Assembly (NCBI GenBank): GCA_945870785.1
Contig: CAMBTK010000003.1
Location: 1-64,000, forward strand
Direction of reading: 5' to 3'
DNA from: Sulfurimonas crateris
Lineage (GTDB): Bacteria; Campylobacterota; Campylobacteria; Campylobacterales; Sulfurimonadaceae
DNA: 64,000 nt
In this document: one piece after another, positions 2,741-40,925 of the stretch
Numbering within the stretch: the stretch's first letter is position 1
Layout: the number at the start of each line of letters is the position of its first letter
Made by a program: the position numbers and the translations under genes
The notes under the pieces: generated by a model
Told to the model about the DNA's origin: nothing
Databases searched by the model: none
Seen by the model: only the letters and a program-made list of their open reading frames with translations

Positions 2741-3727
2741 TTGCATATGTATTTAAAAGATTTAAAGTTCTCGCTGTGGGCGGATTTTATAGAAAGAGAC
2801 TATTTAGATAATGAGTTTAAAGAGTTAATAGATAAAAAAATAATCAATGGAGCTACTTCAAATCCTGCAATATTTAAAAATGCGATACTTAGTTCAAATG
2901 CTTATAAAGAGCAACTTCTTACTCTTAAGTCGCTTAGCCCAAAAGAAAAATATGAAGCAGTTGCTATCTATGATATACAAAAAGCAGCAGATATATTAAA
3001 ACCTCTTTATGATGTAGGCGATGATGGTTATGTAAGTATAGAAGTAGACCCTTTTCTTTGTGATGACGCTGATGCAACGATAAAAGAGGGAGAGAGACTC
3101 TATAAAAGCATAGGCAGAGCAAACGTGATGATAAAAATTCCAGCGACTAAGGCTGGATATATTGCGATGCAAACTCTTACATCAAAAGGCATACCAGTAA
3201 ATGCAACGCTTATCTTTAAGAAAGAACAAGCTATTTTATGTGCAAAAGCTTTTAGAGATGGAACAAAAGAGTTTGGAGCAACCGTTGATACAGTAATAAG
3301 CGTGTTTGTAAGCAGAATCGACAGAGCTTTAGATGATATGCTTGAAAAAGCTAAAATCAAAAAAGCTCTAAGTGGCATATATAACAGTGCAAGTATATAT
3401 GAAGCTGTTGAGAGCATGAGAGTTGATAGATGCCGAGTTCTTTTTGCAAGTACAGGAGTAAAAGATGATTCACTGCCTCCTCACTACTACATTGATGGAC
3501 TTTTAGCGTATAACAGCGTAAATACAGCGCCAGTAGATACTATAAAAGCGTATGATGCAAATGGATCTAAAACAGCTTCGCTTCCAATTTCACAAGAGAA
3601 AATAAGAGAACATTTCGAAGCGATAAAATTTTTAGGTATCGATTTTGATATGATTTTAGACAAGCAGATAGAAGATGGATTACAATCTTTTAAAGATGCA
3701 TTTAAAGATATATTGGAGTCATTATGA
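2741..3727 (+). CDS. tal: Transaldolase
   Basis: GATSNPAIFKNAI and MIKIPATKAG motifs. A second ATG lies 6 bp downstream. Confidence 0.92.
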   Translation: MHMYLKDLKFSLWADFIERDYLDNEFKELIDKKIINGATSNPAIFKNAILSSNAYKEQLLTLKSLSPKEKYEAVAIYDIQKAADILKPLYDVGDDGYVSIEVDPFLCDDADATIKEGERLYKSIGRANVMIKIPATKAGYIAMQTLTSKGIPVNATLIFKKEQAILCAKAFRDGTKEFGATVDTVISVFVSRIDRALDDMLEKAKIKKALSGIYNSASIYEAVESMRVDRCRVLFASTGVKDDSLPPHYYIDGLLAYNSVNTAPVDTIKAYDANGSKTASLPISQEKIREHFEAIKFLGIDFDMILDKQIEDGLQSFKDAFKDILESL

Positions 3728-4920
3728 TTAAACATAACAATGAAATAGATATAAGTCTTTTAACGTTTGAACAGATAAAAAAGATTAGAGGGTATCTTAA
3801 AAAACTTATTGAAAATGGTGGAAGCGACTTACATGTAAAGTCAAACGGGGCAATAAGAGCTAGAATAAATGGGGCGATAATCCCTTTTTCTGGAAGCATC
3901 TTCTCTTATGAAGATGGAATGACTTTGGCAAAAGAGATACTTAGAGGAAGATTCTCAGAGTTGATAGAGCATAAAGAGGTGGATTTAGTTTATCAATTTG
4001 ATGAACGCAACCGCTTTCGTGTAAACATTTTTTTTCAAACTGACGGACCATCTTTTGTTTTTCGTGTAATTCCTATGAAAATTCCAACAATTGATGAGAT
4101 GAAATATCCTGAGATGATAAGAACATTTACAAAAGAGTCACGCGGATTGATACTAGTAACTGGAACAACAGGAAGTGGAAAATCAACAACTCTAGCAGCA
4201 ATGATTCATGAGATAAATATGTGTGATAAAAAACACATCATAACGATAGAAGATCCAATTGAATTTGTTCATAAAGATAGAGGATGTATCATAAATCAAC
4301 GCTCAGTTGGGCAAGATACACTCTCATTTGATAGAGCGCTTAGAGCTGCTCTTCGTGAAGACCCAGATATTATATTAGTTGGAGAGATGAGAGATAGAGA
4401 GACGATAGAGTTGGCACTGCATGCGGCAGATACAGGGCATTTGGTTTTTTCAACACTGCATACGGTTGATGCAAAAGAGACTATAAATCGTATAATTGCT
4501 ATTTTTCCAAACGAAGAGCAAAATCGTGTTAGGCTCTCTCTTGCTGGAGTATTAAAAGGTGTTATATCTCAAAGACTGATTCCAACAAAAGATGATAAAC
4601 GTGTAGCGGCTATGGAGATACTTGTAAAGACTCCTATGGTTGAGAAGTTAATTTTAGAAAATAGAGATTATGAAATTCGCGAAACAATCGAAAAAGGTAG
4701 AGAACACTACAAATCACAAAGTTTTGACCAACATATCTTGGATATATACAATAACGGAATTATCACAAAACAAAAAGCAAAAGATTACGCTACAAGCGCA
4801 TCCGATTTAGAGCTAAAAATGAGTGGCTTAAACAGTGGCAAGGCTTCAGAGAGTATACACAAAGCTGAAAGTGTTGATAAGAACGGCTTTGGCGAAGATG
4901 ATATCTTTAATTTAAAATAG
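3724..4920 (+). CDS. pilT: Type IV pilus retraction ATPase PilT
   Basis: Walker A GTTGSGKSTT, IEDPIEFVH, Asp box LREDPDIILVGEMRD, and His box HTVDAKETINRI. Confidence 0.92.
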   Translation: MIKHNNEIDISLLTFEQIKKIRGYLKKLIENGGSDLHVKSNGAIRARINGAIIPFSGSIFSYEDGMTLAKEILRGRFSELIEHKEVDLVYQFDERNRFRVNIFFQTDGPSFVFRVIPMKIPTIDEMKYPEMIRTFTKESRGLILVTGTTGSGKSTTLAAMIHEINMCDKKHIITIEDPIEFVHKDRGCIINQRSVGQDTLSFDRALRAALREDPDIILVGEMRDRETIELALHAADTGHLVFSTLHTVDAKETINRIIAIFPNEEQNRVRLSLAGVLKGVISQRLIPTKDDKRVAAMEILVKTPMVEKLILENRDYEIRETIEKGREHYKSQSFDQHILDIYNNGIITKQKAKDYATSASDLELKMSGLNSGKASESIHKAESVDKNGFGEDDIFNLK

Positions 4921-4986
4921 ACCTATTTAACTGCAATTAAAGCTTAAAGAGATATAATTGCGGACATTTTTTATTAAGGATTTAAT

Positions 4987-5523
4987 ATGTTAGAAGGCAT
5001 AATTAGAGAGAGTATTGGCAAAATAGGCACGAAAGCGCTTCGCCGCGATGGATATCTAATTGCAAACATTTATGGAAAAGGGTTAGAAAACCTACATGCT
5101 GCATTCAAAGAGAATGAGTATATCCGTACTGTTCGTAATAAAGAGACTCTGGCATTTCCTATCAAAGTAGCATCAAAAGAGATGAATGTTGTTGTTCAAT
5201 CTTATGAGGCACACCCAGTTACGGGTAAGCTATTACACGTAGATTTAATGGTAGCACAACCAAATGTTGTGACACACTATAATGTACCTGTTGTTACAGT
5301 TGGTGATGCAATTGGTCTTAAAAATAAAGGTCTTGTGCATATTTCAAAACCTCGTTTAAGAGTAAAAGCTACTATTGAAAATACTCCAAACGCTATCATT
5401 GTAGATGTTGCTAAAATGGATGTAGGTGACGCAAAAATGGTACGTGACATTGCAAAAATAGCTAATGTGACGTTCACAGATTCTGATCGTGTATCTGTAC
5501 TAAGCGTAATCAAAGCGAAATAA
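4987..5523 (+). CDS. rplY: 50S ribosomal protein L25/Ctc
   Basis: TL5/CTC-like sequence ([17 protein letters not shown]). Immediately upstream of pth, a common arrangement. Confidence 0.92.
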
Positions 5524-5525
5524 TT

Positions 5526-6080
5526 ATGTTAATAGTCGGTCTGGGTAACCCTGGCCCGAACTATGAGCATACCCGCCATAATATAGGCTTTATGGTTATA
5601 AATGAGCTAGTCAAACGAAAAAATGCTCAAAAACTATCTTCATCATTTGACTCTATCCTTTTTAAGTTTTCAAATCATTTTTTATTAAAACCACTTACTT
5701 TTATGAACTTGTCAGGCTTAGCGATTGGCGCTGTAAAGAAGTTTTATAAAATTGATGAAGTTGTTGTAATACATGATGATTTAGACCTTCCATTTGGCGC
5801 ACTTCGCTTTAAAAAAGGCGGTGGACATGGTGGACACAATGGACTTAAATCAACAGATGAACATATTTCAAAAGAGTATATAAGAGTACGAATGGGTATA
5901 GGCAAACCAGAGCATAAAGGTGAAGTAGCTTCTTATGTTTTAAGTAATTTTACTAAAGATGAGCAAGAACATTTAGCGGAGTTTATTGCTTCTGCTTCTG
6001 ATGCACTCGAGTGTCTCTTAAGTAACTCTCTTGAAGATGTTAGCACTAAATATACAATTAAAAAAATTCCGCTAAAATAG
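5526..6080 (+). CDS. pth: Peptidyl-tRNA hydrolase
   Basis: VGLGNPGPNYEHTRHNIGF and HDDLDLPFG...KKGGGHGGHNGLKS motifs. Confidence 0.95.
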   Translation: MLIVGLGNPGPNYEHTRHNIGFMVINELVKRKNAQKLSSSFDSILFKFSNHFLLKPLTFMNLSGLAIGAVKKFYKIDEVVVIHDDLDLPFGALRFKKGGGHGGHNGLKSTDEHISKEYIRVRMGIGKPEHKGEVASYVLSNFTKDEQEHLAEFIASASDALECLLSNSLEDVSTKYTIKKIPLK

Positions 6081-11456: not shown

Positions 11457-13157
11457 ATGGATTTTAAGGTACTTTTTTCACAACTAGTTACTCTCTACGA
11501 TAAGCTTACAAAACAGCAGAAGTTTATCATAGGTGTGGCTATTGTTGGTATTGTTGCATTTGTGATTTTTCTCGTAGTGTATACAGAAAAAAAAGATGCT
11601 CTAAGTAAATATGAGACTCTTTTTGATTCCCTAAGTTCGGAAGATGCTGCAAAAGTTGTAGAGCAACTAGAAAAAGACAATATCCCTTATGAAATACTAG
11701 ATAAAAATGTTATAAAAGTACCAAAAAATGTAGTATATAAAGAGCGTATTGCAATTGCTTCACTTGGAATTCCAAAAAATAACGGTGTTGGATTTGAACT
11801 TTTTGATAAACAAGAATTTGGAGCAACAAGTTTTGACCAAAATGTAAAATATCTTCGTGCTATTGAGGGTGAACTCTCAAGAACAATCAACTCTCTTGCT
11901 CCAATAGAAAATGCGAGTGTAAGTTTAGCCCTCCCAAAAGAGACGCTTTTTGTTGAGAAAAAAGGTGAGCCAACCGCTTCCGTTATGGTTACATTGGTTG
12001 AGGGAAGAAAGCTATCTTCTAAGCAGATTAGGGGTATTAAAAATCTTGTTTCCGCAGCAGTGCCACATCTGACATCTGCAAATGTAATGCTTATAGATAA
12101 TGATGGCGAAACATTAGGCGATGATGATGAGATGGCTCAAATGGGTGAGCTCTCTACGGTTCAGCAGAATTTTAAGACAAAAGAAGAAAAGAAAAAACAG
12201 AGAAAAATTATAGAAGTAGTTTCTCCTTTTGTTGGTGGAGAGCAAAAAGTTGTTGCACAAGTAACAATTGAATTTGATTTTTCTATAAAAAATTCAACTT
12301 CAGAGAGTTATGACCCAGAAAACGTTGTAAGAAGTGAACAAGTTAGTGAAGAAAAAAGAGATGGCTCTACCCCTGCTGAAGTCGGTGGAGTTCCTGGTAC
12401 TGTTAGTAATATAGGCCCAGTTGAGGGTCTAGCTAGTAACAAAACAAGTGAAAAATATGAAAAAAATACAGGAACTACAAACTATGAAGTTGGTAAAACT
12501 GTCTCAACAACAAAGAGTGAATTTGCACGTATAAAGAGAGTGACAGCGGCTGTTGTTGTTGATGGAAAATATAATTATAAAAATGATGCAGATGGAAAAG
12601 CAACAGAAGAGTTGGTATATGAAGCACTCTCAGAGAGTGACTTAGAGGCTCTTAGCGCACTTGTTAGCCGTTCAATTGGAATCAGCGAAGAGCGAGGAGA
12701 CCAAATTAGCGTTCAAAACTTACAGTTTAAAAGAGCGCAGCTTGATCCTTCAAAAGAGAGAGTTAGTCAAGTTGTTTTATTTTCACAAACATATTTGGCA
12801 CCATTTTCTGAACTGTTTAAGTATATGTTTGTGCTTATTCTGCTTCTTGTTCTTTATAAAAAAGTTATCTCTCCATTTGCACAAAGAATGCTTGAAATAT
12901 CTAAAGAAGAAGATGAAATTGGCAGACCTGTTTTAGACATCAAAGATGATGAAGATGAAGATTTGGTAGAAAAAGTTCAATCAATGCGTAAAAAAGTTGA
13001 AGAACAGCTAGGTGTTGGAAATTCGTTTAATGAGGATGAACTCAAATATGATGTTCTTCTTGAGAAGATAAAAAATATGGCTGATGAGTCTCCTGAAGCA
13101 GTTGCGCTAGTTTTACAAGCACTTCTTACCGAAGAGACTGAGTCACCAACAAGATAA
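11457..13157 (+). CDS. fliF: Flagellar M-ring protein FliF
   Basis: Two TM segments; SVSLALPKETLFVEKKGEPTASVMV. Followed by fliG and fliH. Confidence 0.95.
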   Translation: MDFKVLFSQLVTLYDKLTKQQKFIIGVAIVGIVAFVIFLVVYTEKKDALSKYETLFDSLSSEDAAKVVEQLEKDNIPYEILDKNVIKVPKNVVYKERIAIASLGIPKNNGVGFELFDKQEFGATSFDQNVKYLRAIEGELSRTINSLAPIENASVSLALPKETLFVEKKGEPTASVMVTLVEGRKLSSKQIRGIKNLVSAAVPHLTSANVMLIDNDGETLGDDDEMAQMGELSTVQQNFKTKEEKKKQRKIIEVVSPFVGGEQKVVAQVTIEFDFSIKNSTSESYDPENVVRSEQVSEEKRDGSTPAEVGGVPGTVSNIGPVEGLASNKTSEKYEKNTGTTNYEVGKTVSTTKSEFARIKRVTAAVVVDGKYNYKNDADGKATEELVYEALSESDLEALSALVSRSIGISEERGDQISVQNLQFKRAQLDPSKERVSQVVLFSQTYLAPFSELFKYMFVLILLLVLYKKVISPFAQRMLEISKEEDEIGRPVLDIKDDEDEDLVEKVQSMRKKVEEQLGVGNSFNEDELKYDVLLEKIKNMADESPEAVALVLQALLTEETESPTR

Positions 13158-18270: not shown

Positions 18271-20370
18271 TTGAGTAGATTAAGTCTATATCCAGTTACG
18301 TTAGAGGGCGCAAATGAGCAGAAGAAGCGCCAAGAGATACGAGAGTATTTTCACAATACATTTTCACTTTTTGAGAAGATTTTTGAGCTACTAAAAGATG
18401 ATGATGTTTTTTACAACAAATCAGAGATTACAAGACATCCGATGATATTTTATTTTGGACATACCGCTACTTTTTTTATAAATAAACTTATAAATATGAA
18501 GATAATAAAAGAGAGAGTAAATCCAGAGTTTGAGTCAATATTTGCAGTTGGTGTTGATGAGATGGATTGGGATGATATGAATAGTGGCAACTATAAGTGG
18601 CCAATAGTTAGCGAGGTTAGGGAGTATAGAAACATTGTAAGAGAGATAGTTGATGGGCTTATAACTACACTTCCTATGCCTTTGCCGATAGATGATAAAT
18701 CTCCTATGTGGATAATCCTTATGGCAATTGAGCATGAGCGGATACATATAGAGACTTCACTTGTTCTTCATCGTCAAATGCCAATAGAGCTTGTAAAAGA
18801 GGTAAAAGAGTTTAATATCTGCGCACATACTTCACTAGCTCCACAAAATAGCATGATTGATATAAATGGCAAAAATATTAAACTTGGCAAAAATAAAGGA
18901 CATAATCTTTACGGTTGGGACAATGAATATGGAAAATACGAAGAGAGAGTAGAGGATTTTAAAGTTTCAAAGTTTCTTGTGAGTAACGGTGAATTTATGG
19001 AGTTTGTACAAGATGGTGGCTACACAAATAAGGAGTTTTGGGATGAAGAAGGATGGAAATTTTTAGAGATAAGCGGTGCAAAATATCCTACTTTTTGGGT
19101 TAGAGAGAGTGATATTTATAAGTATAGAACTCTGAGCAAAATCATAGATATGCCCCTTGATTGGCCAGTTGATGTAAATGCTCTCGAAGCAGAAGCGTTT
19201 TGTCGATATAAGAGCAGAAAAGATGGAGTGACTTACTCGCTGCCTAGCGAGGCGGAGTATAGAGTGATTTATGAGTATGTAAAGCTTGAAGATATTCCAG
19301 ATTTTCATGAGAGTAGGGCAAATTTGAATTTTTATCACTACTCTAGTTCATGTCCTGTAAATGAGTTTAGTTTTAACGGGATTTATGATGTCGTTGGAAA
19401 TGTTTGGCAGTGGAGCAGAACCCCAATATTTGGCTTTGATGGTTTTGAGGTACATCCTGCGTATGATGACTTTTCAACTCCTACATTTGATAATAAACAT
19501 GCGCTCATACTTGGCTCATCATGGGCTAGTAGCGGAAATCTTATAATGAAGCACTCTCGTTACGCTTTTCGCAGACACTTCTTTCAAAATGCTGGATTTA
19601 GATATGTAATCTCTAGCTCAGATATAGAAAAACAGAGCGATATTTATGAAAGTGATGAACTGGTTTCGCAATACTGTGAGTTTCAGTACGGAGATAGCTT
19701 TTTTGGAGTAAAAAACTTTGCACTAGAGTGTGTAAAGATAGCAACTAAATTTGTTAAAAACAGGACAAAAGCGCTTGATTTGGGTTGTGCGACTGGACGA
19801 GCTACATTTGAGTTGGCGCATAGTTTTGATGAGGTTGATGGGATTGATTTTTCTGCAAGATTTATCGGTGTTGGAGTAAAGCTTAAAAATGATGGCTATG
19901 TAGCGTATAGAACCAAAACAGAGGGCGATTTAAGCGAGGAGAGAAGAGCCTCCATTGAAGAGTTGGGATATGAGAAGATAAAAGATAAAGTCTCTTTTTG
20001 GCAAGGCGATGCATGTAATCTAAAGCAAAATTTCAACTCATATAATTTGATTTTAGCAAAAAATATAATAGACAGACTATATAACCCAAGACTTTTTTTA
20101 GATAGCGTTCATGAGCGGCTAGAGCGTGATGGTATTTTAGTTCTAACTTCTCCCTACACATGGCAAGAGAGCTCAACAAAAAAAGAGTTTTGGCTTGGTG
20201 GGTACAAAGATGAGAATAACAAAGAAGTTAAAACCATAGATACACTAAAAGAGATTCTAGGTAAACATTTTGAGCTTATACATGTAGAAAATGTTGAGTT
20301 TGTTATAAAAGAGACACAGAGAAAATATCAACATAGCGTTGCTGAGGTTAGTGTGTGGAGGAAAATATGA
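18271..20370 (+). CDS. ovoA: 5-histidylcysteine sulfoxide synthase/methyltransferase (OvoA-like)
   Basis: TTG start. N-terminal DinB_2-like domain with HERIHIE (HX3HXE), FGE-sulfatase domain (VGNVWQWSRTPI...LILGSSWASSG...FRRHFFQNAGFRYV), C-terminal SAM methyltransferase (ALDLGCATGRATFELA). Confidence 0.85.
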   Translation: MSRLSLYPVTLEGANEQKKRQEIREYFHNTFSLFEKIFELLKDDDVFYNKSEITRHPMIFYFGHTATFFINKLINMKIIKERVNPEFESIFAVGVDEMDWDDMNSGNYKWPIVSEVREYRNIVREIVDGLITTLPMPLPIDDKSPMWIILMAIEHERIHIETSLVLHRQMPIELVKEVKEFNICAHTSLAPQNSMIDINGKNIKLGKNKGHNLYGWDNEYGKYEERVEDFKVSKFLVSNGEFMEFVQDGGYTNKEFWDEEGWKFLEISGAKYPTFWVRESDIYKYRTLSKIIDMPLDWPVDVNALEAEAFCRYKSRKDGVTYSLPSEAEYRVIYEYVKLEDIPDFHESRANLNFYHYSSSCPVNEFSFNGIYDVVGNVWQWSRTPIFGFDGFEVHPAYDDFSTPTFDNKHALILGSSWASSGNLIMKHSRYAFRRHFFQNAGFRYVISSSDIEKQSDIYESDELVSQYCEFQYGDSFFGVKNFALECVKIATKFVKNRTKALDLGCATGRATFELAHSFDEVDGIDFSARFIGVGVKLKNDGYVAYRTKTEGDLSEERRASIEELGYEKIKDKVSFWQGDACNLKQNFNSYNLILAKNIIDRLYNPRLFLDSVHERLERDGILVLTSPYTWQESSTKKEFWLGGYKDENNKEVKTIDTLKEILGKHFELIHVENVEFVIKETQRKYQHSVAEVSVWRKI

Positions 20371-21554
20371 CTTATGACTTCTCAACCTCCGCATCAAGAG
20401 AAGATACAAACGCTGAGAAATACGCACTAAGAGAGAAGCTTTTTGGTACAAAAAATGTAGAACCTCTTTGGGTGGCGGATATGGATATAGATACACCTAA
20501 ATTTGTGCTTGAAGCCGTAAAAAAGCGCCTTGAGCATCCTATCGTTGGATATGAAGAGGTGCCTCATAGCGCTTTTTTGGCTCAGATAAAGTGGATGAAG
20601 GATGTGCATGGGGTAGAATTTGAGTTAGAAGATATGTTCTACTCGCACTCTGTGGTTGCGAGTATGAACGCTGCAATAGAAGCATTTAGCAACAAAGGCG
20701 ATAAAGTCATAGTTCAAACACCCGTCTATCCACCATTTTTTCATAGTGTGAGAGAGCACGAGAGAGAGCTTTTAAAAAATCCTCTTAAACAAGAAGATGA
20801 TGGAAGTTACATATTTGATGTAGAAGATTTACTCTCAAAAATAGATGAAAAAACTAAACTTCTGCTTCTTTGTTCTCCGCATAATCCAGTAGGGCGTGTT
20901 TGGAGGAGGGAAGAGCTAGAACGTATTTTAGAGGTTTGCCTAAAATATAACATAGTAGTTTTTAGCGATGAAATCCACTCTGATTTGGTTTATGCACCAA
21001 ATACTCATACAGTATTTGCATCTCTAAGCCAAGCTGCTAGAGATATTACCATCACTGCAATTGGGGTTGGAAAAACTTTTAATATGGCTGGATTTTCGAT
21101 GAGTAGTGTTGCTATACCAAATATTGAGTTAAGAGAGAAGTTTTTAAAAGTATATAATCGTATTCATTTTGCTGCTGGAAATGCTCTCTCACATGTAGCT
21201 TTTGAATCGGCATATGTAGAGGGCAGAGAGTGGCTTGAAGAGCTAAAGACACATCTTTTTAAAAATTACAGTATGCTAAAAGAGTTATGTGCAAACTATC
21301 CTTATCTAATAAAAGTAACCCCAATTGAGGGAACTTACCTCGCGTGGCTTGATTGTAGGGGGCTGGCTCTTAGGGATAAGGAGTTAAGAGAGTTTTTTAT
21401 AAAAGAGGCAGGTCTTGGGCTTAGTGCAGGGATAAGTTTTGGTAGAGAGGGAAGCGGTTTTATGAGGTTGAATTTTGCAATCTCATCTGCTAAAATGTCT
21501 CAAGTAGTAAATAAACTTCAAATAGCACTTGAAAAACATAGGAGTAGAGATTGA
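20367..21554 (+). CDS. PatB/MalY-type PLP-dependent aminotransferase/beta C-S lyase; candidate OvoB
   Basis: LWVADMDIDTPKFV, CSPHNPVGRVW, SDEIHSDLVY, GKTFNMAGF. ATGA overlap with ovoA; RBS GGAGG just upstream of ATG 20367 (track start 20355 is a GTG). Confidence 0.85.
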   Translation: MTYDFSTSASREDTNAEKYALREKLFGTKNVEPLWVADMDIDTPKFVLEAVKKRLEHPIVGYEEVPHSAFLAQIKWMKDVHGVEFELEDMFYSHSVVASMNAAIEAFSNKGDKVIVQTPVYPPFFHSVREHERELLKNPLKQEDDGSYIFDVEDLLSKIDEKTKLLLLCSPHNPVGRVWRREELERILEVCLKYNIVVFSDEIHSDLVYAPNTHTVFASLSQAARDITITAIGVGKTFNMAGFSMSSVAIPNIELREKFLKVYNRIHFAAGNALSHVAFESAYVEGREWLEELKTHLFKNYSMLKELCANYPYLIKVTPIEGTYLAWLDCRGLALRDKELREFFIKEAGLGLSAGISFGREGSGFMRLNFAISSAKMSQVVNKLQIALEKHRSRD

Positions 21555-29020: not shown

Positions 29021-29461
29021 ATGAGTTCTATAAAAGAATTTTTAGCTGAAGATCATGGTCGTTGTGATGAGCTTTTTGCAAATATGGAAGATGCTGTTGC
29101 AAACTCAATTGAGAGCGCAAAAGATGCTTATGAAGAGTTTGCTAAAAATACAGAGAAGCACTTTCAGATGGAAGAGCGTGTAATGTTTTTAGAGTTTGAG
29201 AATAAAACTGGTATGACACAAGGGCCAACGGCGATTATGAGACATGAGCATACACAAATGAGAGGCTTGCTTGAAGAGATGCGCAAAGCGATTGAGGCTA
29301 AAGATAAAGATAAATTTTTTGGAAACAGTGAAACTTTGATGATTTTAATGCAACAGCACAACATGAAAGAGGAGCAGATGCTATATCCAATGGCACAGCA
29401 ACACTTAAGTGCTGATGCAGAGCGCATTATAGATATGATGAACTCAATGGTTATTGAGTAG
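29021..29461 (+). CDS. Hemerythrin/HHE cation-binding domain protein
   Basis: His/Glu pattern DHGRCDELF, HFQMEE, HEHTQMRGLLEEM, HNMKEEQMLYP. Confidence 0.88.
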   Translation: MSSIKEFLAEDHGRCDELFANMEDAVANSIESAKDAYEEFAKNTEKHFQMEERVMFLEFENKTGMTQGPTAIMRHEHTQMRGLLEEMRKAIEAKDKDKFFGNSETLMILMQQHNMKEEQMLYPMAQQHLSADAERIIDMMNSMVIE

Positions 29462-29473
29462 AGAAGAGAAGAT

Positions 29474-30772
29474 ATGGATTTTGATGGATTGTCAGTAGAC
29501 CAAGCACCGCCTATATCTGCGCCACTTAGGTTTTTTCTAACTGCGCCGTTATTCGCTATTTTAGCAGGGATATTGATTCTATTTAGCGATGCAGTAACTC
29601 TCTCTAGCAGGTACTCTGTTGAAACGATTGTCATTACACATGCCATAACCATAGGCTTTTTAGGCTTTGTGATGCTTGGTGCGCTTGTTCAAATGTTGCC
29701 AGTATTAGCAGGTGTTAGAATAGCAAAAGTGGGTATTGTCTCTAAAATCTCATACGTATTTTTGCTTTTTGGAACTCTTTTTATGATTTTTGGCTTATGG
29801 TTTGATATTTCAAAAATCACACTCTTGGCATCATTTTTTCTCCTATGCGGGTTTCTTATACTAATCATCTCAATGCTTCTTGCTTTTAGAGGAGTTGTTC
29901 ATGTGACTGCTAGTATAAGAGCTATGATAACTGGCCTCTTTTTTGCTCTTATCATAACGCTTATGGGTGCACATCTGTTGGCATCTTATGGAGTTGGAAA
30001 ATTTTCTGCACTGCACCATGTTTTTGCAAATGTTCATAGCGTATGGGCTATTTTTGGCTTTGCTGGGATTTTAATTATTGGAGTTGCCTTCCATATTTTA
30101 CCTATGTTTTATGTAGCTCCACGGTTTAAGAGATTTTGTAAAAAAAGTGTTGTTATGCTTATAACAACTGGACTTATTCTTTGGCTATTTTTAAATCTTT
30201 TCTTTGACTTTTATTCAACTATCGCCAAAATATGGATAGCGCTCTTTTTTTGGGCATTTGCAACAACTGTGTATCTGAAGTTAAATGCTAGAAGACGAAA
30301 AGTCAGTGATGTGACTGTTTGGTACTGGAGAAGTGCTGCTATATTTATGACACTTGGAACCTTTGCGTGGAGCATAAACGATTTTTTAGATGAAAAATAT
30401 ATTGTAATAGTCTCTATCTTAATAGGAGGCGGATTTATATTTTCTATAATGTCTGGGATGCTATATAAAATAGTTCCATTTTTAGTATGGTTCCATCTTA
30501 ACGCTAAAGGATATATGAGTATACCTACAATGAATGATATGATTGATAAGAGGCTCTCAAAGAGTCAATTTATACTCTTTATACTCTCTTTAATTGGTTT
30601 TATTTTATCATTTTTTATACCCTCACTTCTGAGTGTTTTTGCCATTACCTTTATTTTAAGTATGGCTGTTTTAGAGTACAATATCGTATCTGCAGTGCTG
30701 ATATATTATAAAACACTAAAGAGAAAACCAGACTTTGATATGAGTATGTTTACAATGAAAGCAGAGAATTAA
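29474..30772 (+). CDS. Polytopic membrane protein, heme-copper oxidase subunit I/NnrS-like
   Basis: About 12 TM helices. Conserved His in THAITIGFLGFVMLGALVQMLPVLAGV and HVFANVHSVWAIFGF...AFHILPMFYV. Confidence 0.65.
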   Translation: MDFDGLSVDQAPPISAPLRFFLTAPLFAILAGILILFSDAVTLSSRYSVETIVITHAITIGFLGFVMLGALVQMLPVLAGVRIAKVGIVSKISYVFLLFGTLFMIFGLWFDISKITLLASFFLLCGFLILIISMLLAFRGVVHVTASIRAMITGLFFALIITLMGAHLLASYGVGKFSALHHVFANVHSVWAIFGFAGILIIGVAFHILPMFYVAPRFKRFCKKSVVMLITTGLILWLFLNLFFDFYSTIAKIWIALFFWAFATTVYLKLNARRRKVSDVTVWYWRSAAIFMTLGTFAWSINDFLDEKYIVIVSILIGGGFIFSIMSGMLYKIVPFLVWFHLNAKGYMSIPTMNDMIDKRLSKSQFILFILSLIGFILSFFIPSLLSVFAITFILSMAVLEYNIVSAVLIYYKTLKRKPDFDMSMFTMKAEN

Positions 30773-33186: not shown

Positions 33187-33825
33187 ATGCAATTAGGCTT
33201 CCTAGTTGATTTACATCTGTGTATGGGATGTAAAGGGTGTGAAATCGCATGTAAAGTGGAAAATGAAGTTCCACTAAGTACATGGAGACTTCGTGTTAAA
33301 TATGTAGATGTTGGGACTTTTCCAGAGACGAAAAGAACATTTACACCATTAAGATGTAACCATTGTGAGAATGCACCATGTGAGAGAATCTGCCCAGTAA
33401 GTGCGCTTCATTATCTTGAAAATGGCATTGTAAATATTGATAAAGAGCGCTGTATTGGTTGTGCAGGTTGTGTAATGGCATGTCCTTATGGAGCTATATA
33501 TATAGATCCTCAAACACAAACTGCAGATAAGTGTACATATTGTGCTCACCGTGTTGCTTCAAGTATGATGCCTGCATGTGTTGTTGCTTGTCCTGTTCAA
33601 GCAAATATTTTTGGAGATTTAGAAGATCCTACTTCAAATATTTCAAAATATATTCAAGTTCACCAAGGTGGAGTTCAAGTTCGTAAACCTGAAAAAGGTA
33701 CCAACCCTCACCATTACTATGTAGGTGGCGGAAATGTTACGCTTAATCCTCTTGCTTCTCATAGAGTTGATGGACATTCACTATTTAATAATATTACAAC
33801 ACTTCCAGTAGGAGGACACCACTAA
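33187..33825 (+). CDS. 4Fe-4S dicluster electron-transfer subunit (PsrB/NrfC/PhsB-like)
   Basis: Multiple Cys clusters: CMGCKGCEIACK, CNHCENAPCERICP, CIGCAGCVMACPYGA, CTYCAHRV...CVVACP. Confidence 0.93.
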   Translation: MQLGFLVDLHLCMGCKGCEIACKVENEVPLSTWRLRVKYVDVGTFPETKRTFTPLRCNHCENAPCERICPVSALHYLENGIVNIDKERCIGCAGCVMACPYGAIYIDPQTQTADKCTYCAHRVASSMMPACVVACPVQANIFGDLEDPTSNISKYIQVHQGGVQVRKPEKGTNPHHYYVGGGNVTLNPLASHRVDGHSLFNNITTLPVGGHH

Positions 33826-34727
33826 TGGCGGCGCATGAAATCTTAGCAGCAACTAATGCTGTAGTTACATTAGACGTAGCATTACCAGGTATTGTTTGGC
33901 CTTGGCTAGTAACAGTAAATATGTGGGCAAAAAGTATAGGTACTGGTGTTATTTTTATGCTATTTATGCTTCTTAGAATGCATCCAGAGTCAGCTAAGAA
34001 TTTAAGACTTACAACTGCATTGGTTGCTTTTGTATTTATTAATATTTTCTTACTCTTTACGTTGGCTGACTTGCATCAACCATTTAGAATGTGGCATATT
34101 TTTGTATACCCACACTGGAGTTCTGCTATAGCGGTTGGTTCATTTATGGCTTCAATGTTCCTTGGTCTTTTAACTCTTCTTTCATTCTTGGCTTTCAAGA
34201 AAAATGATGTTTTATTTGACAAAGTTCTTCTTTGGACAACAGTTCTTGCTATTCCAGTTACGCTTTATACAGCATCTTTAATGGCTCAATCTACAGCACG
34301 TGAATTATGGCAAATGCCAGCTGAATCTGCTCAGATGATTTTAGCTGCACTTCTTGCAGGTTCTGCAGCCATGATTCTTCTTGGCGGTAATAAGCTATCA
34401 AATGAAGCTAGAAACACTCTAGGAGTAGTTTTGGGACTTAGTGCTTTAATGGCATTCATAATCTATATGTCAGAGTATATTTTTGGACCAATGAAAGCAG
34501 AAGAAATAGCCGCTACAATCGCTTACATTAAAGGTGATGGACCGTACGCTGTTATGTTCTGGATAGGTCAATGGATGACTTTTATCTTACCGATGCTCTT
34601 TATTGTGTTAAGTAGAGTTAGTAAGTCTGATGCTATTTTAAAATTAGCAGCAATTTTGGCATTAGTTGGTTTAGCAATTGTTAAACATGTATGGCTAATG
34701 ATTCCACAATTATTACCAATGAGTTAG
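33825..34727 (+). CDS. NrfD/PsrC-like polysulfide-reductase-type membrane subunit
   Basis: Polytopic protein between the Fe-S and Mo subunits, NrfD-like. Start overlaps the preceding stop by 1 bp (TAATG). Confidence 0.88.
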   Translation: MAAHEILAATNAVVTLDVALPGIVWPWLVTVNMWAKSIGTGVIFMLFMLLRMHPESAKNLRLTTALVAFVFINIFLLFTLADLHQPFRMWHIFVYPHWSSAIAVGSFMASMFLGLLTLLSFLAFKKNDVLFDKVLLWTTVLAIPVTLYTASLMAQSTARELWQMPAESAQMILAALLAGSAAMILLGGNKLSNEARNTLGVVLGLSALMAFIIYMSEYIFGPMKAEEIAATIAYIKGDGPYAVMFWIGQWMTFILPMLFIVLSRVSKSDAILKLAAILALVGLAIVKHVWLMIPQLLPMS

Positions 34728-34739
34728 GGAGAATATTGA

Positions 34740-37700
34740 ATGTATTTAGAAAGTAGAAGAACATTTTTAAAAGGCGCTGCATTTACTGTAGCGGGTGCAA
34801 CAATAGCAAAGGGTGTATTTACAACTGATGTTCTTGCTGAATCGGTCAGTAACAGTAAGTTTACAAATACTCCAGACACAATATCATTTTATCCTCCAAT
34901 GAGTGAATGGAATGATTTTAAAGAGTTAGATGGCGACGACTGGAAAAGAGGCGGTATTGACCGTCATGGTGTAAGAAGTGAGTCAAACCCTGAAGGTATA
35001 GAAGTTAATGATTACATGATAATACCTACTGCATGTTCAAACTGTGAGGCTTCTTGTGGTTTGACTGCATGGATTGACAAAAAAACATTTACTGTTAAAA
35101 AGTATATGGGTAATCCTTTACATCCAGCTTCACGTGGCCGTAACTGTGCAAAAGGTTATGCTGCCCAGTCACAAATGTATGATCCAGATCGTATAGCATT
35201 CCCATTGAAACGTGCTCCAGGTTCTGCACGTGGTGAAGGTAAATGGATTCGTACTACTTGGGACGAAGCTATGACTACTATCGGTAAAAAAATGAGTGAT
35301 ACTATCAAAATAGGCGATGAAGTATCTAAAAAATCTGTAATGTACCATGTTGGTCGTCCAAATGAGAATGGATTTGTTCCAGCTATTTGGCATACACTAG
35401 GTTTAGATTCTTACAACTCACATACAAATATATGTTCAGCGAATGGTCGTACACCAACTATTCAATGGGCTAATGATGATAGAACATCGCCAGATTGGGC
35501 AAATGCTAAGTTAATTTTTCTAAACTCTTCACATGCTGCTGATGCAGGACACTATTTTCAACAATCTGCATCTTTTATAGCAGATGCAAGACAAAAGGGA
35601 GCTAAGCTTGTAGTTATGGATCCTCGTATGTCAAACTCTGCTGGTATGGCAGACCTTTGGATTGCTGCATGGCCAGGAACAGAGCCAGCTGTTTATCTAT
35701 ACCTTACACAGAGAATTCTAAATGAAAATAAAGTCGATAAAGAATTTGTAAAGAAATGGATTAACTGGGAAGTATTTTTAGATAATAAAAAATATTTAGA
35801 CTTTATGGTTAGCAAAGGATATATCTCTAAGCTTCCAAAAGGTGATCAATTTGAAGACTTTATTGAGGTATTAAAAGAGTTATACTCTCCATATACACTT
35901 GATTTTGCAGTTAAAGAGACGCACGTTCCTGGATATAAACTTGAAGCACTTTATGATATGTTTATATGGGCTGGTACAGCAATATCTTCATATTTCTGGA
36001 GAGCTGCTGCTGCTGGAAATCGTGGTGGATGGATGAGCGGTCGTACAGGTTATTTACCACTTGCTCTTCGTGGTGCTATTGGACCAGAAGGTGGTACATT
36101 CTTCCATCACTGGCACGTAATTTCTGTTGCAGGTAAAGGCGGAAGCTCAACTATAGGACAAGGAAAACGTGGAGTAGATATTCCTAAGATAGATGTATAT
36201 AATGAGTTGACATGGCCGCCAGAATGGCCAATATCTTCATATGAGTTATCATTCTTATTGCCACATCTTTTAACAGATACAAAATGGCAAAAAAAATGGA
36301 TAGACAGAGGCTTTAGTGTACCTCAAAAACTATCAGTATATATTCCTCGTATGTATAATCCAGTATGGATTAATCCAGATGGTTTCAGATGGATAGAAGT
36401 TCTTAAAGATGAATCTAAAATGGAACTTACAATGAATCTTTCTCCTGTATGGTCTGAGACTAACTGGTATATGGATTACATCCTGCCAGTTGGACTAGCA
36501 GGTGAGAGACATGACCAACATTCAGAGGCAACAATGCCGGCTCGTTGGACATCTTTCCGTCAGCCAGTTATGAGAGTAGCTCTAGAGAAAATGGGATGGA
36601 AGCCTAAAAATCCAAACCGTGCTACACTTGAAGCACATATCAAAGCTGGTCTTGGAGAAGTTTGGGAAGAGAATGAGTTCTGGTTTGATTTATGTGTGAA
36701 TTATATAGATCCAACTGGTGAGCTTGGCATTAAAAAGATGTGGGAATCAAAGAAAAATCCTGGCAAGCCTGTAACTATATCTGAGTGGTATGATGCAGCA
36801 TTTGGAGATAATCTACCAAATCTTAAATCAACTGCAATGTCAGATGATAGATATAAAAATGCAGAATACCCTGTGTATGAGTACATGAGAGACCATGGTG
36901 CATGGATGGAAGAGAATAATATCTACTCTCCACAAGAGAGAGTGATAAAAGATGACGGTGAAAATTATATTTCACATGGTCATAAGTATGACAAAAAACA
37001 TGTTCATATAGACAAGAGAACAGGCGTTATGACAGTTGAACATGATGGTAAAAAAACATCAATGGGAATTGAAACTGACGGTGTAAAAATGGAAGGTTTC
37101 GCTACAATGGATAAGAAGCTTGACTTCTTCTGTGAGTGGTTGGCAGATGATTGGAAATGGCCAGAATATGCTATTCCATTCTATCCAAGAAATGATCAAG
37201 AGAAAAAAGATATGCTTCATATCGTATCGCATGTAAATCACTCTTATATGACTGAGAAAAACTCGTATGCACTAAATACAGTTTTCCGTCTGCCGTATAA
37301 TATCCATACACGTTCTGCTAACTCAAAGCACCTTATGGAAATTTCTCAAAATCACGATCCAATATGGATTTCAACAGGAGATGCTGCACGTCAAGGATTT
37401 AAGCGTGGAGATGCTATCCGTGTTAGAATTGTAGATAGTGTAACTGGATTAGAATCTGGATATTTTGTTGCAATGGCTGTACCGACAGAGGGTGTTCTTC
37501 CTGGTACATTAGCGTGTTCACACCATGGTGGTCGATGGAAGTTAATTAACTCAGTAACTATTCCAAATGGTGTAACAGATGGAAAAGTTGATTCTCAGCC
37601 AGTATTAAGAAATATGAATGATCCTAAATTTATGGCACACTCTCCTGAAAATGTAGGTAGAGATGGCGCTCAAATTAAAATTGAAGATTACAGCGGAAAG

Positions 37701-38132
37701 GGTGGTATAAATAGTTTTGGTGTACCAACTGCTGAACTTCAAATGGATGGAAAAGAGGGCAAATTAAAGTATATTGAGGGCATTAAGCCATTTAAAGCTG
37801 AAAGATTTGCTGAGTACAATAAAGATAGTGGAAATATCTGGTGGGATGGGCTTAGTGGTTCATGGCAAAATGCTGTTGCTGCTCCACATCCAGACCCTAT
37901 TTCAGGTATGCATTGTTGGCACCAAAAAGTTATTTTAGAGCCATCACAAGCAGGCGATAAGATAGGCGATATCTATGTTAATTATGATAACAACTTCAAG
38001 ATATACGAAGGCTGGAGAGATCAACTAACACGTGGGTTAGATGAAAATTCTACACTTCGTCGTCCAGAGCATATTAAGCGTCCTTGGGTACCTTTATCTC
38101 ATAAAGCATACGTTGTTAAAATAAATAAATAA
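34740..38132 (+). CDS. Tat-exported molybdopterin oxidoreductase catalytic subunit (CISM family; Psr/Phs/Soe/Arr-like, substrate unknown)
   Basis: Tat motif SRRTFLKG; Fe-S ligands CSNCEASC...NCAKG; HTNICSANGRTP; C-terminal Mo-pterin dinucleotide-binding domain (HTRSANSKHLMEISQNHDPIWI). Confidence 0.88.
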   Translation: MYLESRRTFLKGAAFTVAGATIAKGVFTTDVLAESVSNSKFTNTPDTISFYPPMSEWNDFKELDGDDWKRGGIDRHGVRSESNPEGIEVNDYMIIPTACSNCEASCGLTAWIDKKTFTVKKYMGNPLHPASRGRNCAKGYAAQSQMYDPDRIAFPLKRAPGSARGEGKWIRTTWDEAMTTIGKKMSDTIKIGDEVSKKSVMYHVGRPNENGFVPAIWHTLGLDSYNSHTNICSANGRTPTIQWANDDRTSPDWANAKLIFLNSSHAADAGHYFQQSASFIADARQKGAKLVVMDPRMSNSAGMADLWIAAWPGTEPAVYLYLTQRILNENKVDKEFVKKWINWEVFLDNKKYLDFMVSKGYISKLPKGDQFEDFIEVLKELYSPYTLDFAVKETHVPGYKLEALYDMFIWAGTAISSYFWRAAAAGNRGGWMSGRTGYLPLALRGAIGPEGGTFFHHWHVISVAGKGGSSTIGQGKRGVDIPKIDVYNELTWPPEWPISSYELSFLLPHLLTDTKWQKKWIDRGFSVPQKLSVYIPRMYNPVWINPDGFRWIEVLKDESKMELTMNLSPVWSETNWYMDYILPVGLAGERHDQHSEATMPARWTSFRQPVMRVALEKMGWKPKNPNRATLEAHIKAGLGEVWEENEFWFDLCVNYIDPTGELGIKKMWESKKNPGKPVTISEWYDAAFGDNLPNLKSTAMSDDRYKNAEYPVYEYMRDHGAWMEENNIYSPQERVIKDDGENYISHGHKYDKKHVHIDKRTGVMTVEHDGKKTSMGIETDGVKMEGFATMDKKLDFFCEWLADDWKWPEYAIPFYPRNDQEKKDMLHIVSHVNHSYMTEKNSYALNTVFRLPYNIHTRSANSKHLMEISQNHDPIWISTGDAARQGFKRGDAIRVRIVDSVTGLESGYFVAMAVPTEGVLPGTLACSHHGGRWKLINSVTIPNGVTDGKVDSQPVLRNMNDPKFMAHSPENVGRDGAQIKIEDYSGKGGINSFGVPTAELQMDGKEGKLKYIEGIKPFKAERFAEYNKDSGNIWWDGLSGSWQNAVAAPHPDPISGMHCWHQKVILEPSQAGDKIGDIYVNYDNNFKIYEGWRDQLTRGLDENSTLRRPEHIKRPWVPLSHKAYVVKINK

Positions 38133-38141
38133 CATCTAGTA

Positions 38142-38171
38142 GTTATAAAATAGGAGTTCCTATTTTATAAC
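38142..38171. terminator. Bidirectional hairpin between convergent genes
   Basis: gttataaaatagga-gt-tcctattttataac, perfect 14-bp inverted repeat just after the molybdoenzyme stop. Confidence 0.85.
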
Positions 38172-38751: not shown

Positions 38752-39252
38752 ATGAGTAAAATAATTTTTTCAATAGTATTTGGAGTGTTATTAATTGGAT
38801 GTAGTTCTCAAAAAGAGGTGGTGTCTAAATCTAGTATGTTTCAAAGTGTTTCAAGCGATGAAGTAGTTCATCTTAGTAAAGAAAAAGATAAGAATTCTTG
38901 CCCACGTTGTGGGATGGATTTAACAAAATACTATAAAACAAGTCATGCAGCATATCTTGATGACAAAGTGTATCAATATTGTTCAATTCACTGTTTACAG
39001 GATCACTTACATGAGGGTATATCATTAAAAAATCCTCAGGTTGTAGATATAAAAAGTTTAAAATTTATTGGTGTTGATAAGGCTTATTATGTTGTAGGTA
39101 GTAGCGTTAAGGGAACAATGAGCAGAGTTAGTAAATATGCTTTCTCAAATAAGGAAGATGCAGAAAATTTTCAAAAAAAATATGGCGGAGAGATTATGGA
39201 TTTTTATAAAGCTTTGGAAGTAGCAGCAAAAGATTTTAAAGAGCGAAGATAA
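38752..39252 (+). CDS. NosL-family lipoprotein
   Basis: Lipobox LLIGCSS; CPRCGMDLTKYYKTSHAAYLDDKVYQYCSIHCLQDHL is NosL-like. Confidence 0.82.
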   Translation: MSKIIFSIVFGVLLIGCSSQKEVVSKSSMFQSVSSDEVVHLSKEKDKNSCPRCGMDLTKYYKTSHAAYLDDKVYQYCSIHCLQDHLHEGISLKNPQVVDIKSLKFIGVDKAYYVVGSSVKGTMSRVSKYAFSNKEDAENFQKKYGGEIMDFYKALEVAAKDFKERR

Positions 39253-39275
39253 AAAACTCTTCTCTCTTGTATGCT

Positions 39276-40925
39276 TTAAATCATAATACCTTTAATTGTA
39301 AAAAATAACATACCAGCTAAAATAGCAGCAACAGGAACTGTAATTAGCCAAGCCGCAACAATTTTTTTGATTGCGTCTCTGCGAACATATTGAACTTTCT
39401 TAGCTTTTTTAATATTTTTCTTTGTTGATTTTATAATCTTTTTTTCATTCTCGATAAGTTTATAAAGATCTACTATTCTTGTATAGTCAGACTGCGCTTT
39501 ATCATCTTTGTCTTGTAATACTTTGAGCTCATGCTTGTATGCATTTTTATTCAGTTCTTCATCTTTAATTATTAGTGTATCTTCTTCTATTGTATGATTA
39601 TTTTCATCTTTTATATGTAACCACTCTCTTAAAAATCCGACACCAAATATCCCACCTATTGCAATGTGTGTTGAGCTAACAGGAAGCCCTAATTGGGAAG
39701 CTAAAATAACAGTCAGTGAAGCAGACATTGCTATTGAAAATGCTCTTATTTGATCTAGGTCCGTTATCTCACTACCAACTGTTTTAATCAGCTTAGGACC
39801 ATAAAGCGCAAGGCCAATTGCTATACCAAACGCACCAACACCCATAACCCAAAGAGGAATTGAAGCGCTAGAAGATACACCACCGTTTACTACAGCATCA
39901 TTAATAGCAGCTAATGGACCAATTGCATTTGCTACATCATTAGCGCCATGAGCAAAACTAAGTAGAGCTGCAGCAAAAATAAGTGGTATTGTAAATAAGG
40001 TATTTACAGACGCTTTTGTATTTTCTAAAGCTGTTACACCAGAATATAGCCTTTTTTTAACAAAAATATATACAAATATTGCAATAATAAAACCGATAAC
40101 TAGTGCAGTTGAAAAAGCTGGTTTCTTTGTAACCTCTAAAGAAATAAAAGGAAGAATATTTAATAGCTCAATTATTTTAGGCCATATATGCTTTACTCCT
40201 TTGAGTATTATATATGTAACAAATGCTAATGACATGATTGATACAAATAGTGGAACATATTTTTTAGCAGCTTCAACTTTGTCATCTTTAAAAACAATTG
40301 ATTTTTTTATTGCAAAAAGAAAAGCAGCTGCAATAATTCCACCAAGAACTGGTGAAACGATCCATGAAGCAACTATGCTGAGCATAGTTGTCCAATTTAC
40401 TACATCAAAGCCTGCTGCAGCAATTCCAGCGCCCATTACGCCACCAACAATTGAGTGTGTTGTTGAGACGGGGGCTCTCATCATAGTTGCAAAGTTAAGC
40501 CAAAGGGCTGCCGCTAGAAGAGCTGCCATCATAGCCCAAATAAATTGATCATGATTGCCATTAAAAGCAGATATATCTATAATTCCATTTTTAATTGTTT
40601 TAACAACTTCTCCACCAGCAATTAACGCACCAGAAGCTTCAAAAACTGCAGCAATAATAATTGCTGCAGTAAGTGTTAACGCTTTAGAGCCAACTGCTGG
40701 TCCTACATTGTTAGCAACATCATTGGCTCCTATATTCATAGCCATATAGGCACCAATTAGCGCTGCAACTGCAAGAAACATACTGTTTGAAATTCCACCG
40801 TTGCTTAAAAACGTAAATGTCAAAACACCAATCATAAAAAATATAGCAAACCCAAGTCTTGTAAAATCAGTTGCACTTCTTTTTAACGCTTTTTTTTGAA
40901 GCCTATCGATAGTCTTAAATTCCAT
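39276..40925 (-). CDS. PiT-family inorganic phosphate transporter
   Basis: Duplicated GANDVANxxGP signatures (NIGANDVANNVGPAVG, HGANDVANAIGPLAA) and PVSTTHSIVGG/PVSSTHIAIGG. Confidence 0.94.
   Translation of the reverse strand: MEFKTIDRLQKKALKRSATDFTRLGFAIFFMIGVLTFTFLSNGGISNSMFLAVAALIGAYMAMNIGANDVANNVGPAVGSKALTLTAAIIIAAVFEASGALIAGGEVVKTIKNGIIDISAFNGNHDQFIWAMMAALLAAALWLNFATMMRAPVSTTHSIVGGVMGAGIAAAGFDVVNWTTMLSIVASWIVSPVLGGIIAAAFLFAIKKSIVFKDDKVEAAKKYVPLFVSIMSLAFVTYIILKGVKHIWPKIIELLNILPFISLEVTKKPAFSTALVIGFIIAIFVYIFVKKRLYSGVTALENTKASVNTLFTIPLIFAAALLSFAHGANDVANAIGPLAAINDAVVNGGVSSSASIPLWVMGVGAFGIAIGLALYGPKLIKTVGSEITDLDQIRAFSIAMSASLTVILASQLGLPVSSTHIAIGGIFGVGFLREWLHIKDENNHTIEEDTLIIKDEELNKNAYKHELKVLQDKDDKAQSDYTRIVDLYKLIENEKKIIKSTKKNIKKAKKVQYVRRDAIKKIVAAWLITVPVAAILAGMLFFTIKGIMI

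Follow-up and report, generated by a model that had tools for sequence, protein, structure and literature searches.

The window, by which we mean the whole stretch of 64,000 nt analysed here, carries a three-gene operon for a molybdoenzyme complex that is near-universal in Sulfurimonas-type sulfur bacteria and has apparently never been characterised. The complex is placed outside every named family with which it was compared by sequence, and it is likened to SoeA by description alone. We put at about even the probability that it faces the periplasm of chemolithotrophic Campylobacterota and, in the manner of SoeABC, oxidises a sulfur oxyanion (most likely sulfite) with menaquinone as the acceptor, its substrate, direction of electron flow and type of quinone being those that we infer. 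More tentatively, it may belong to a separate, undescribed family of molybdenum quinone oxidoreductases in Campylobacterota, Actinomycetota, Thermomicrobia and haloarchaea. This family would occur in two mirror-image forms, one with a Tat signal and an N-out NrfD facing the periplasm and the other with a fused, inverted NrfD facing the cytoplasm, and the periplasmic form would be an overlooked, near-universal sulfite/sulfur oxidase of Sulfurimonas. No experimental study of the complex was found in the papers searched, which left subscription journals mostly outside; Psr enzymes, cytoplasmic or periplasmic, and SorAB are described in these bacteria in the same papers.

According to the ORF calls, the three genes are contiguous and co-directional on the + strand of the window (33187-38132), in the order B-C-A. 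Subunit B (33187..33825, 212 aa) is a TtrB/PsrB-like Fe-S protein with a Pfam Fer4_11 match, and its 16 cysteines correspond in number to four 4Fe-4S-type clusters; its best NCBIfam model is TtrB, at 200 bits against a cut-off of 416. Subunit C (33825..34727, 300 aa), whose ATG overlaps the stop codon of B, is a membrane protein of the NrfD family (Pfam NrfD, 64 bits) with TtrC as nearest NCBIfam model. It is predicted to have eight core transmembrane helices and, by charge bias, an N-out topology, and it was the sole NrfD match in a search of the whole window genome, which is Sulfurimonas-like, 1.73 Mb in size and 88.6% complete. Subunit A (34740..38132, 1130 aa) is the catalytic subunit, as assigned by the Pfam domains Molybdopterin, Molybdop_Fe4S4 and Molydop_binding and by the tree described below. 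The order of Fe-S, NrfD and Tat-signal catalytic subunit of 1130 aa given in the earlier note is thus borne out by the ORFs and Pfam domains, and one operon encodes a Mo-bisPGD/4Fe-4S catalytic subunit, a four-cluster subunit and a membrane anchor, as expected of a CISM enzyme. A terminator-like hairpin of 13 pairs lies directly 3' of the A stop codon (38142..38171, + strand), in a region where 6 such hairpins were found and 3.2 were expected from shuffles. Promoter predictions were at chance level.

Some other genes of the window were recorded as well. Encoded at 29021-30772 are a hemerythrin-like protein and, after it, a membrane protein of 432 aa that matches no Pfam family, and the two families recur near the operon at 21 and 23 loci, respectively, of the set examined. 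Downstream of the operon, at 38752-40925, are genes for a lipoprotein resembling NosL and for an anion transporter of the PiT type (549 aa); PiT-type transporters are also found near the haloarchaeal relatives of the operon. Ovothiol synthesis-like genes, judged by eye only, are located at 18271-21554 and comprise an OvoA-like protein of 699 aa with a C-terminal methyltransferase, followed by a PLP enzyme.

Subunit A begins with a twin-arginine motif, RRTFLK (residues 6-11, 34755..34772, + strand as for all the following features), which predicts export to the periplasm. The motif is kept in the Campylobacterota relatives and absent from a branch made up of Rhodococcus, Thermomicrobium and haloarchaeal proteins. 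Four cysteines form a 4Fe-4S motif, C99-x2-C102-x3-C106-x29-C136 (35034..35147), recognised from the match to Pfam PF04879 and from the alignment of these cysteines, and Cys232 in HTNICS (35433..35435), invariant in the alignment sets A1, A3 and A4, is the predicted molybdenum ligand. The segment suspected of holding the Mo-ligand cysteine in the earlier note was correctly chosen, because Cys232 of HTNIC aligns with the ligand cysteines of PhsA, TtrA and ArxA. The unusual size pointed out in the same note is real, since the 1130 aa of A compare with 758-839 aa for the PhsA and PsrA-type proteins (TtrA, 999-1010 aa); it is, however, a trait of the whole clade, and all full-length Campylobacterota relatives examined have 1082-1152 aa. 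These fall into two size classes, one of about 1130-1150 aa and the other, lacking residues 943-985, of about 1082-1100 aa. The extra length is made up of an N-terminal linker (about residues 57-84), a 40-residue insert confined to the Sulfurimonas/Sulfuricurvum sub-branch (residues 945-984, 37572..37691) and a C-terminal extension of ~105 residues (residues 1023-1130, 37806..38129). This extension, with its PISGMHCWHQKV motif, is conserved in every member of the clade, including the ~960-residue actinobacterial proteins, and is the hallmark of the clade. The charged stretch (residues 726-780, 36915..37079), singled out earlier as a notable source of length, turned out to be among the least conserved parts of A, with a mean column agreement of 0.63 and 0.40 compared with 0.84 and 0.68 for the FeS/Mo core, and was rejected as a defining feature of the enzyme. 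An AlphaFold2 model of A made with 26 relatives had a mean pLDDT of 48.5 and was discarded.

To place A among the molybdoenzymes, it was scored against the NCBIfam models and included in maximum-likelihood trees. The scores were far below the cut-offs for PhsA (128 of 694 bits), DmsA (120 of 778), ArrA (60 of 1600) and TtrA (49 of 1750), the last cut-off being strict if taken alone, as Campylobacterota TtrA proteins themselves reach 887-982 bits. In the trees the Campylobacterota proteins and their Rhodococcus, Thermomicrobium and haloarchaeal relatives formed a clade of their own, of 13 members, with support of 100/100, outside the PhsA-PsrA clade (97/99), the TtrA clade (100/100) and the DmsA/YnfE and type II references; in both trees ArxA was outside as well, as was NapA, the positions of these two being unsure because of their long branches. 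We therefore rejected the identification of A as PhsA/PsrA, TtrA, ArrA/ArxA, DmsA or NapA, and on the evidence of the catalytic subunit we also rejected the tetrathionate reductase suggested by gene order. A is thus not nested within the characterised PhsA/PsrA, TtrA or ArxA clades, and the proposal of a respiratory CISM-type complex other than PsrA, with the substrate left undecided, is upheld. The nearest solved relative in a single-sequence search was the Thermus Psr (2vpw), and the best PDB match of the clade profile was ArrA (6cz7). No SoeA or Aquifex SreA reference was found in the plasmids, the Campylobacterota genomes or the PDB, and NCBIfam has no SoeA model. Suspected SoeA matches proved to be arx clusters (L183, L210), DMSO-type II enzymes (L153-L155), PsrA types, a fused Fe-S/molybdopterin protein (L170) and CGYCGVGC proteins mostly without a Tat signal.

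Nearer to the clade than any named reference were a protein of Azoarcus sp. KH32C and Campylobacterota proteins of ~850 aa. The latter (L158 and L159, about 850 aa) represent a molybdopterin family that is uncurated, is exported by Tat and carries an SVCLNC motif. The former, a member of none of the curated families, is encoded on plasmid pAZKH (L147, 6245-14136) in a B-C-A-TorD-polyferredoxin operon; a set of PhnD/sensor kinase/sigma-54 regulators accompanies it, and genes for arsenic efflux are close by. A B-C-A-TorD-Mrp cluster was also observed on a Halorientalis marina plasmid (L187, 2277-9669), and its 1084-aa catalytic subunit groups with the Campylobacterota TtrA.

The relatives outside the Campylobacterota were obtained by tblastn of plasmids and were full-length matches, with 95-98% coverage and 35-37% identity, from Thermomicrobium roseum, Rhodococcus jostii RHA1 (pRHL3), Natrinema, Halomarina and Halomicrococcus. 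Between the Rhodococcus protein and its Thermomicrobium counterpart the identity is 59%, and with the haloarchaeal ones it is 50-54%. The clade consists of a Campylobacterota branch with a Tat signal and a sister branch that lacks the signal and has a single fused protein in place of separate Fe-S and NrfD subunits. An orientation score was calculated by summing the loop charges of NrfD on aligned helices, odd minus even loops. It ranged from +7 to +14 in 77/77 Campylobacterota sequences, corresponding to N-out, the orientation to be expected for a periplasmic A, and from -2 to -7 in 5/5 fused proteins, corresponding to N-in; the haloarchaeal proteins are acidic overall, so that the sign counts there and not the size. 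With its Tat signal and N-out NrfD the window complex therefore should face the periplasm, and the sister branch appears to face the cytoplasm. An inverted NrfD is likewise expected for the cytoplasmic SoeABC (PMC8076601). The genes in Rhodococcus follow one another in a single run in the order DsrE2, TusA, fused BC, A and Mrp, with divergent rhodanese-MBL genes and further rhodaneses beside them, and the haloarchaeal context consists of rhodanese-MBL, TauE, BC and A, joined in one case by Mrp and a CysP-like PiT transporter. The rhodanese-MBL neighbours resemble persulfide dioxygenases and hence would form sulfite; they were assigned by architecture because the curated Blh model scores low (53-57 bits compared with 625).

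The system extends beyond the three-gene operon, as a TorD chaperone and a polyferredoxin are encoded elsewhere in the genome. In Sulfuricurvum and others, genes for a TorD chaperone, a polyferredoxin of ~370 aa and further small proteins are directly downstream of A. The orthologues in the window genome are located on contig C32, beside ATP sulfurylase (L212, G000:C32:11000-18859, at 2942-5987), and encode proteins of 168 and 274 aa, both without Pfam match, a 370-aa polyferredoxin and a 205-aa TorD protein; the chaperone and the ferredoxin show 54-69% identity to the orthologues of the adjacent type. The chaperone (>190 bits) was detected in 25/25 genomes carrying the complex and 0/12 without it; one of these 12, of the same genus (G007), has neither chaperone nor complex. 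This co-occurrence, and the adjacency in many relatives, agree with the system-specific TorD/NarJ-type chaperone of CISM enzymes. The module adjoins ATP sulfurylase also in S. mangrovi, which may be ordinary synteny.

Among 36 genomes of the same genus, 33 have strong relatives of A, which in a few cases are in fragments. In a sample of 249 genomes of the phylum, the complex was present in 19/19 Sulfurimonadaceae and in five other families, one of which has it partially; the families to which most of the remaining genomes belong lack it. The GTDB genome contigs yielded 407 loci. An identity of 60-94% is kept across hundreds of loci, and the operon is therefore no chance arrangement. Of the 249 genomes, 42 have genes of true TtrA type (887-982 bits), and the complex is present in 0/42 of these. 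SoxB or SoxC was present in 27/37 carriers and 20/212 non-carriers, raw counts that are confounded by shared ancestry. The association is visible in these counts but not exclusive, as ten carriers lack both SoxB and SoxC, Arcobacter-like Sox-positive genomes lack the complex, and G007 has SoxB and SoxC without it; SoxB and SoxC were thus rejected as strict partners. The window genome itself has SoxC and no detectable SoxB. Scans of viral contigs gave one short, distant match, and a second scan gave none. On the 'plasmid' NZ_CP087125.1 of Sulfurovum mangrovi (L141) the catalytic gene lacks an annotation, and there is a break in its reading frame around 13080-13150; as housekeeping genes are present on this record, it may be part of the chromosome.

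In the mechanism that we propose, subunit A, with Mo-bisPGD, a cysteine ligand and one 4Fe-4S cluster, would fold and acquire its cofactor in the cytoplasm, assisted by the dedicated TorD-type chaperone encoded on C32. The folded protein would then be exported by Tat and dock on B, with its four Fe-S clusters, and on C, the NrfD subunit. There A would draw two electrons from a sulfur oxyanion, at best guess oxidising sulfite to sulfate, and B would relay these to the menaquinone bound in C, so that the complex would work like SoeABC, on the outer face of the membrane. Sulfite oxidation is favoured because of the gene context of the relatives, and because the complex is distributed among chemolithotrophs that oxidise sulfur and its family occurs on both membrane faces. 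DsrE2, TusA, rhodanese-MBL, TauE and a CysP-like permease beside the sister operons speak for an oxidative role. Against sulfite, SorAB already serves this substrate in many Sulfurimonas, the nearest models of B and C (TtrB and TtrC) are subunits of a reductase, and S. hydrogeniphila NW10, known here by physiology alone, does not grow on sulfite (PMC7952632).

The same two models would also be consistent with a periplasmic polysulfide/sulfur, thiosulfate or tetrathionate reductase fed by menaquinol in H2-dependent sulfur respiration, for which the Thermus Psr as nearest solved relative argues too. Sulfur reduction is moreover reported for a Sulfurimonas isolate (PMC10045233). We consider this reading rather unlikely, since the scores of A against PhsA and TtrA are far too low, the family is missing from the Campylobacterota families with true TtrA, and some of the same genomes have separate PsrA-type enzymes (L162, L190, L191). 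The gene order B-C-A is that of Salmonella ttrBCA; the sister-branch context, with its persulfide-dioxygenase-like proteins and TauE, is nevertheless oxidative, and the hosts Rhodococcus, Thermomicrobium and Natrinema are mainly aerobes. An oxidative role on thiosulfate, tetrathionate, persulfide or a sulfane carrier in place of free sulfite would suit the TusA, DsrE2 and rhodanese by the Rhodococcus operon, which handle sulfane sulfur, and the SoxC without SoxB of the window genome, which leaves SoxYZ-bound sulfur. TauE and the sulfite-forming dioxygenase-like neighbours point more simply to sulfite, and a carrier-binding site was not identified, so that we regard such a role as improbable.

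Oxyanions of arsenic, antimony or selenium, as for an ArxA/ArrA/SrdA-like enzyme, are very improbable substrates. The PDB match to ArrA and the distant Azoarcus homologue, which lies near ars genes with a PhnD/sensor/sigma-54 set like that of arx loci, fit this reading; against it stand the score of A with the ArrA model, the position of the ArxA reference, on a long branch, outside the clade, and the recurring neighbour families at 80 Campylobacterota loci, which include no arsenic genes. A stronger contender, though we hold it short of even, is that the complex is a divergent SoeABC of the bSreA/SoeA lineage whose Campylobacterota branch is exported; the function would be the one that we favour, and the difference would concern novelty. 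The sister branch has no signal peptide, about 955-1010 aa, an inverted NrfD and a sulfite context, as SoeABC has, and Wells et al. describe a large bSreA/SoeA radiation with a few archaeal members (PMC10100899), whereas the window branch is predicted to be periplasmic and SoeABC as published is located in the cytoplasm (PMC8076601). Our confidences in the two accounts overlap, since both would hold for an exported SoeABC.

Sulfurimonas and related bacteria are the dominant sulfur oxidisers at vents, in redoxclines and in groundwater, and according to recent studies the enzymes with which they disproportionate sulfur have yet to be identified (PMC9948710, PMC12998232). A core molybdenum complex, near-universal in these bacteria and missed because annotation cannot tell CISM enzymes apart, offers a concrete candidate for a step in their sulfur metabolism that has been overlooked. 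If both branches carry out the same chemistry, one on each face of the membrane, they would offer a natural comparison of NrfD energy conservation and of a flip in orientation.

Among the known systems, TtrBCA shares with the window complex the gene order, the best models of B and C and a large Tat-exported A, but A differs in score (49 bits against 1750), belongs to a separate, fully supported clade and shares no genomes with true TtrA. PsrABC/PhsABC has the same domain architecture and Mo-cysteine ligand, the NrfD anchor (Psr) and the nearest solved structure; the window A is about 300 aa longer, far under the PhsA cut-off and in a separate clade, and PsrA-type paralogues coexist with the complex in some sister genomes. 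ArrAB/ArxABCD are likewise Cys-ligated CISM enzymes with a TorD partner, and the clade profile matches the ArrA structure, but A is under the cut-off, the Arx order is B'-A-B-C-D, and no arsenic context was seen at the Campylobacterota loci. SoeABC of Allochromatium vinosum and Aquifex aeolicus is a three-subunit CISM with Cys-ligated molybdenum (PMC10100899) and Fe-S and NrfD subunits, as is the window complex, and bacterial SreA and SoeA are grouped as one large lineage in published surveys (PMC10100899). The cytoplasmic sister branch is like it in subunit size, inverted NrfD and sulfite-type gene context. A cytoplasmic A without signal peptide and an inverted NrfD, both characteristic of SoeABC, are seen in the sister branch and not in the window; compared with the known SoeABC, as described, the window complex, with its Tat signal and N-out NrfD, is predicted to face the periplasm.
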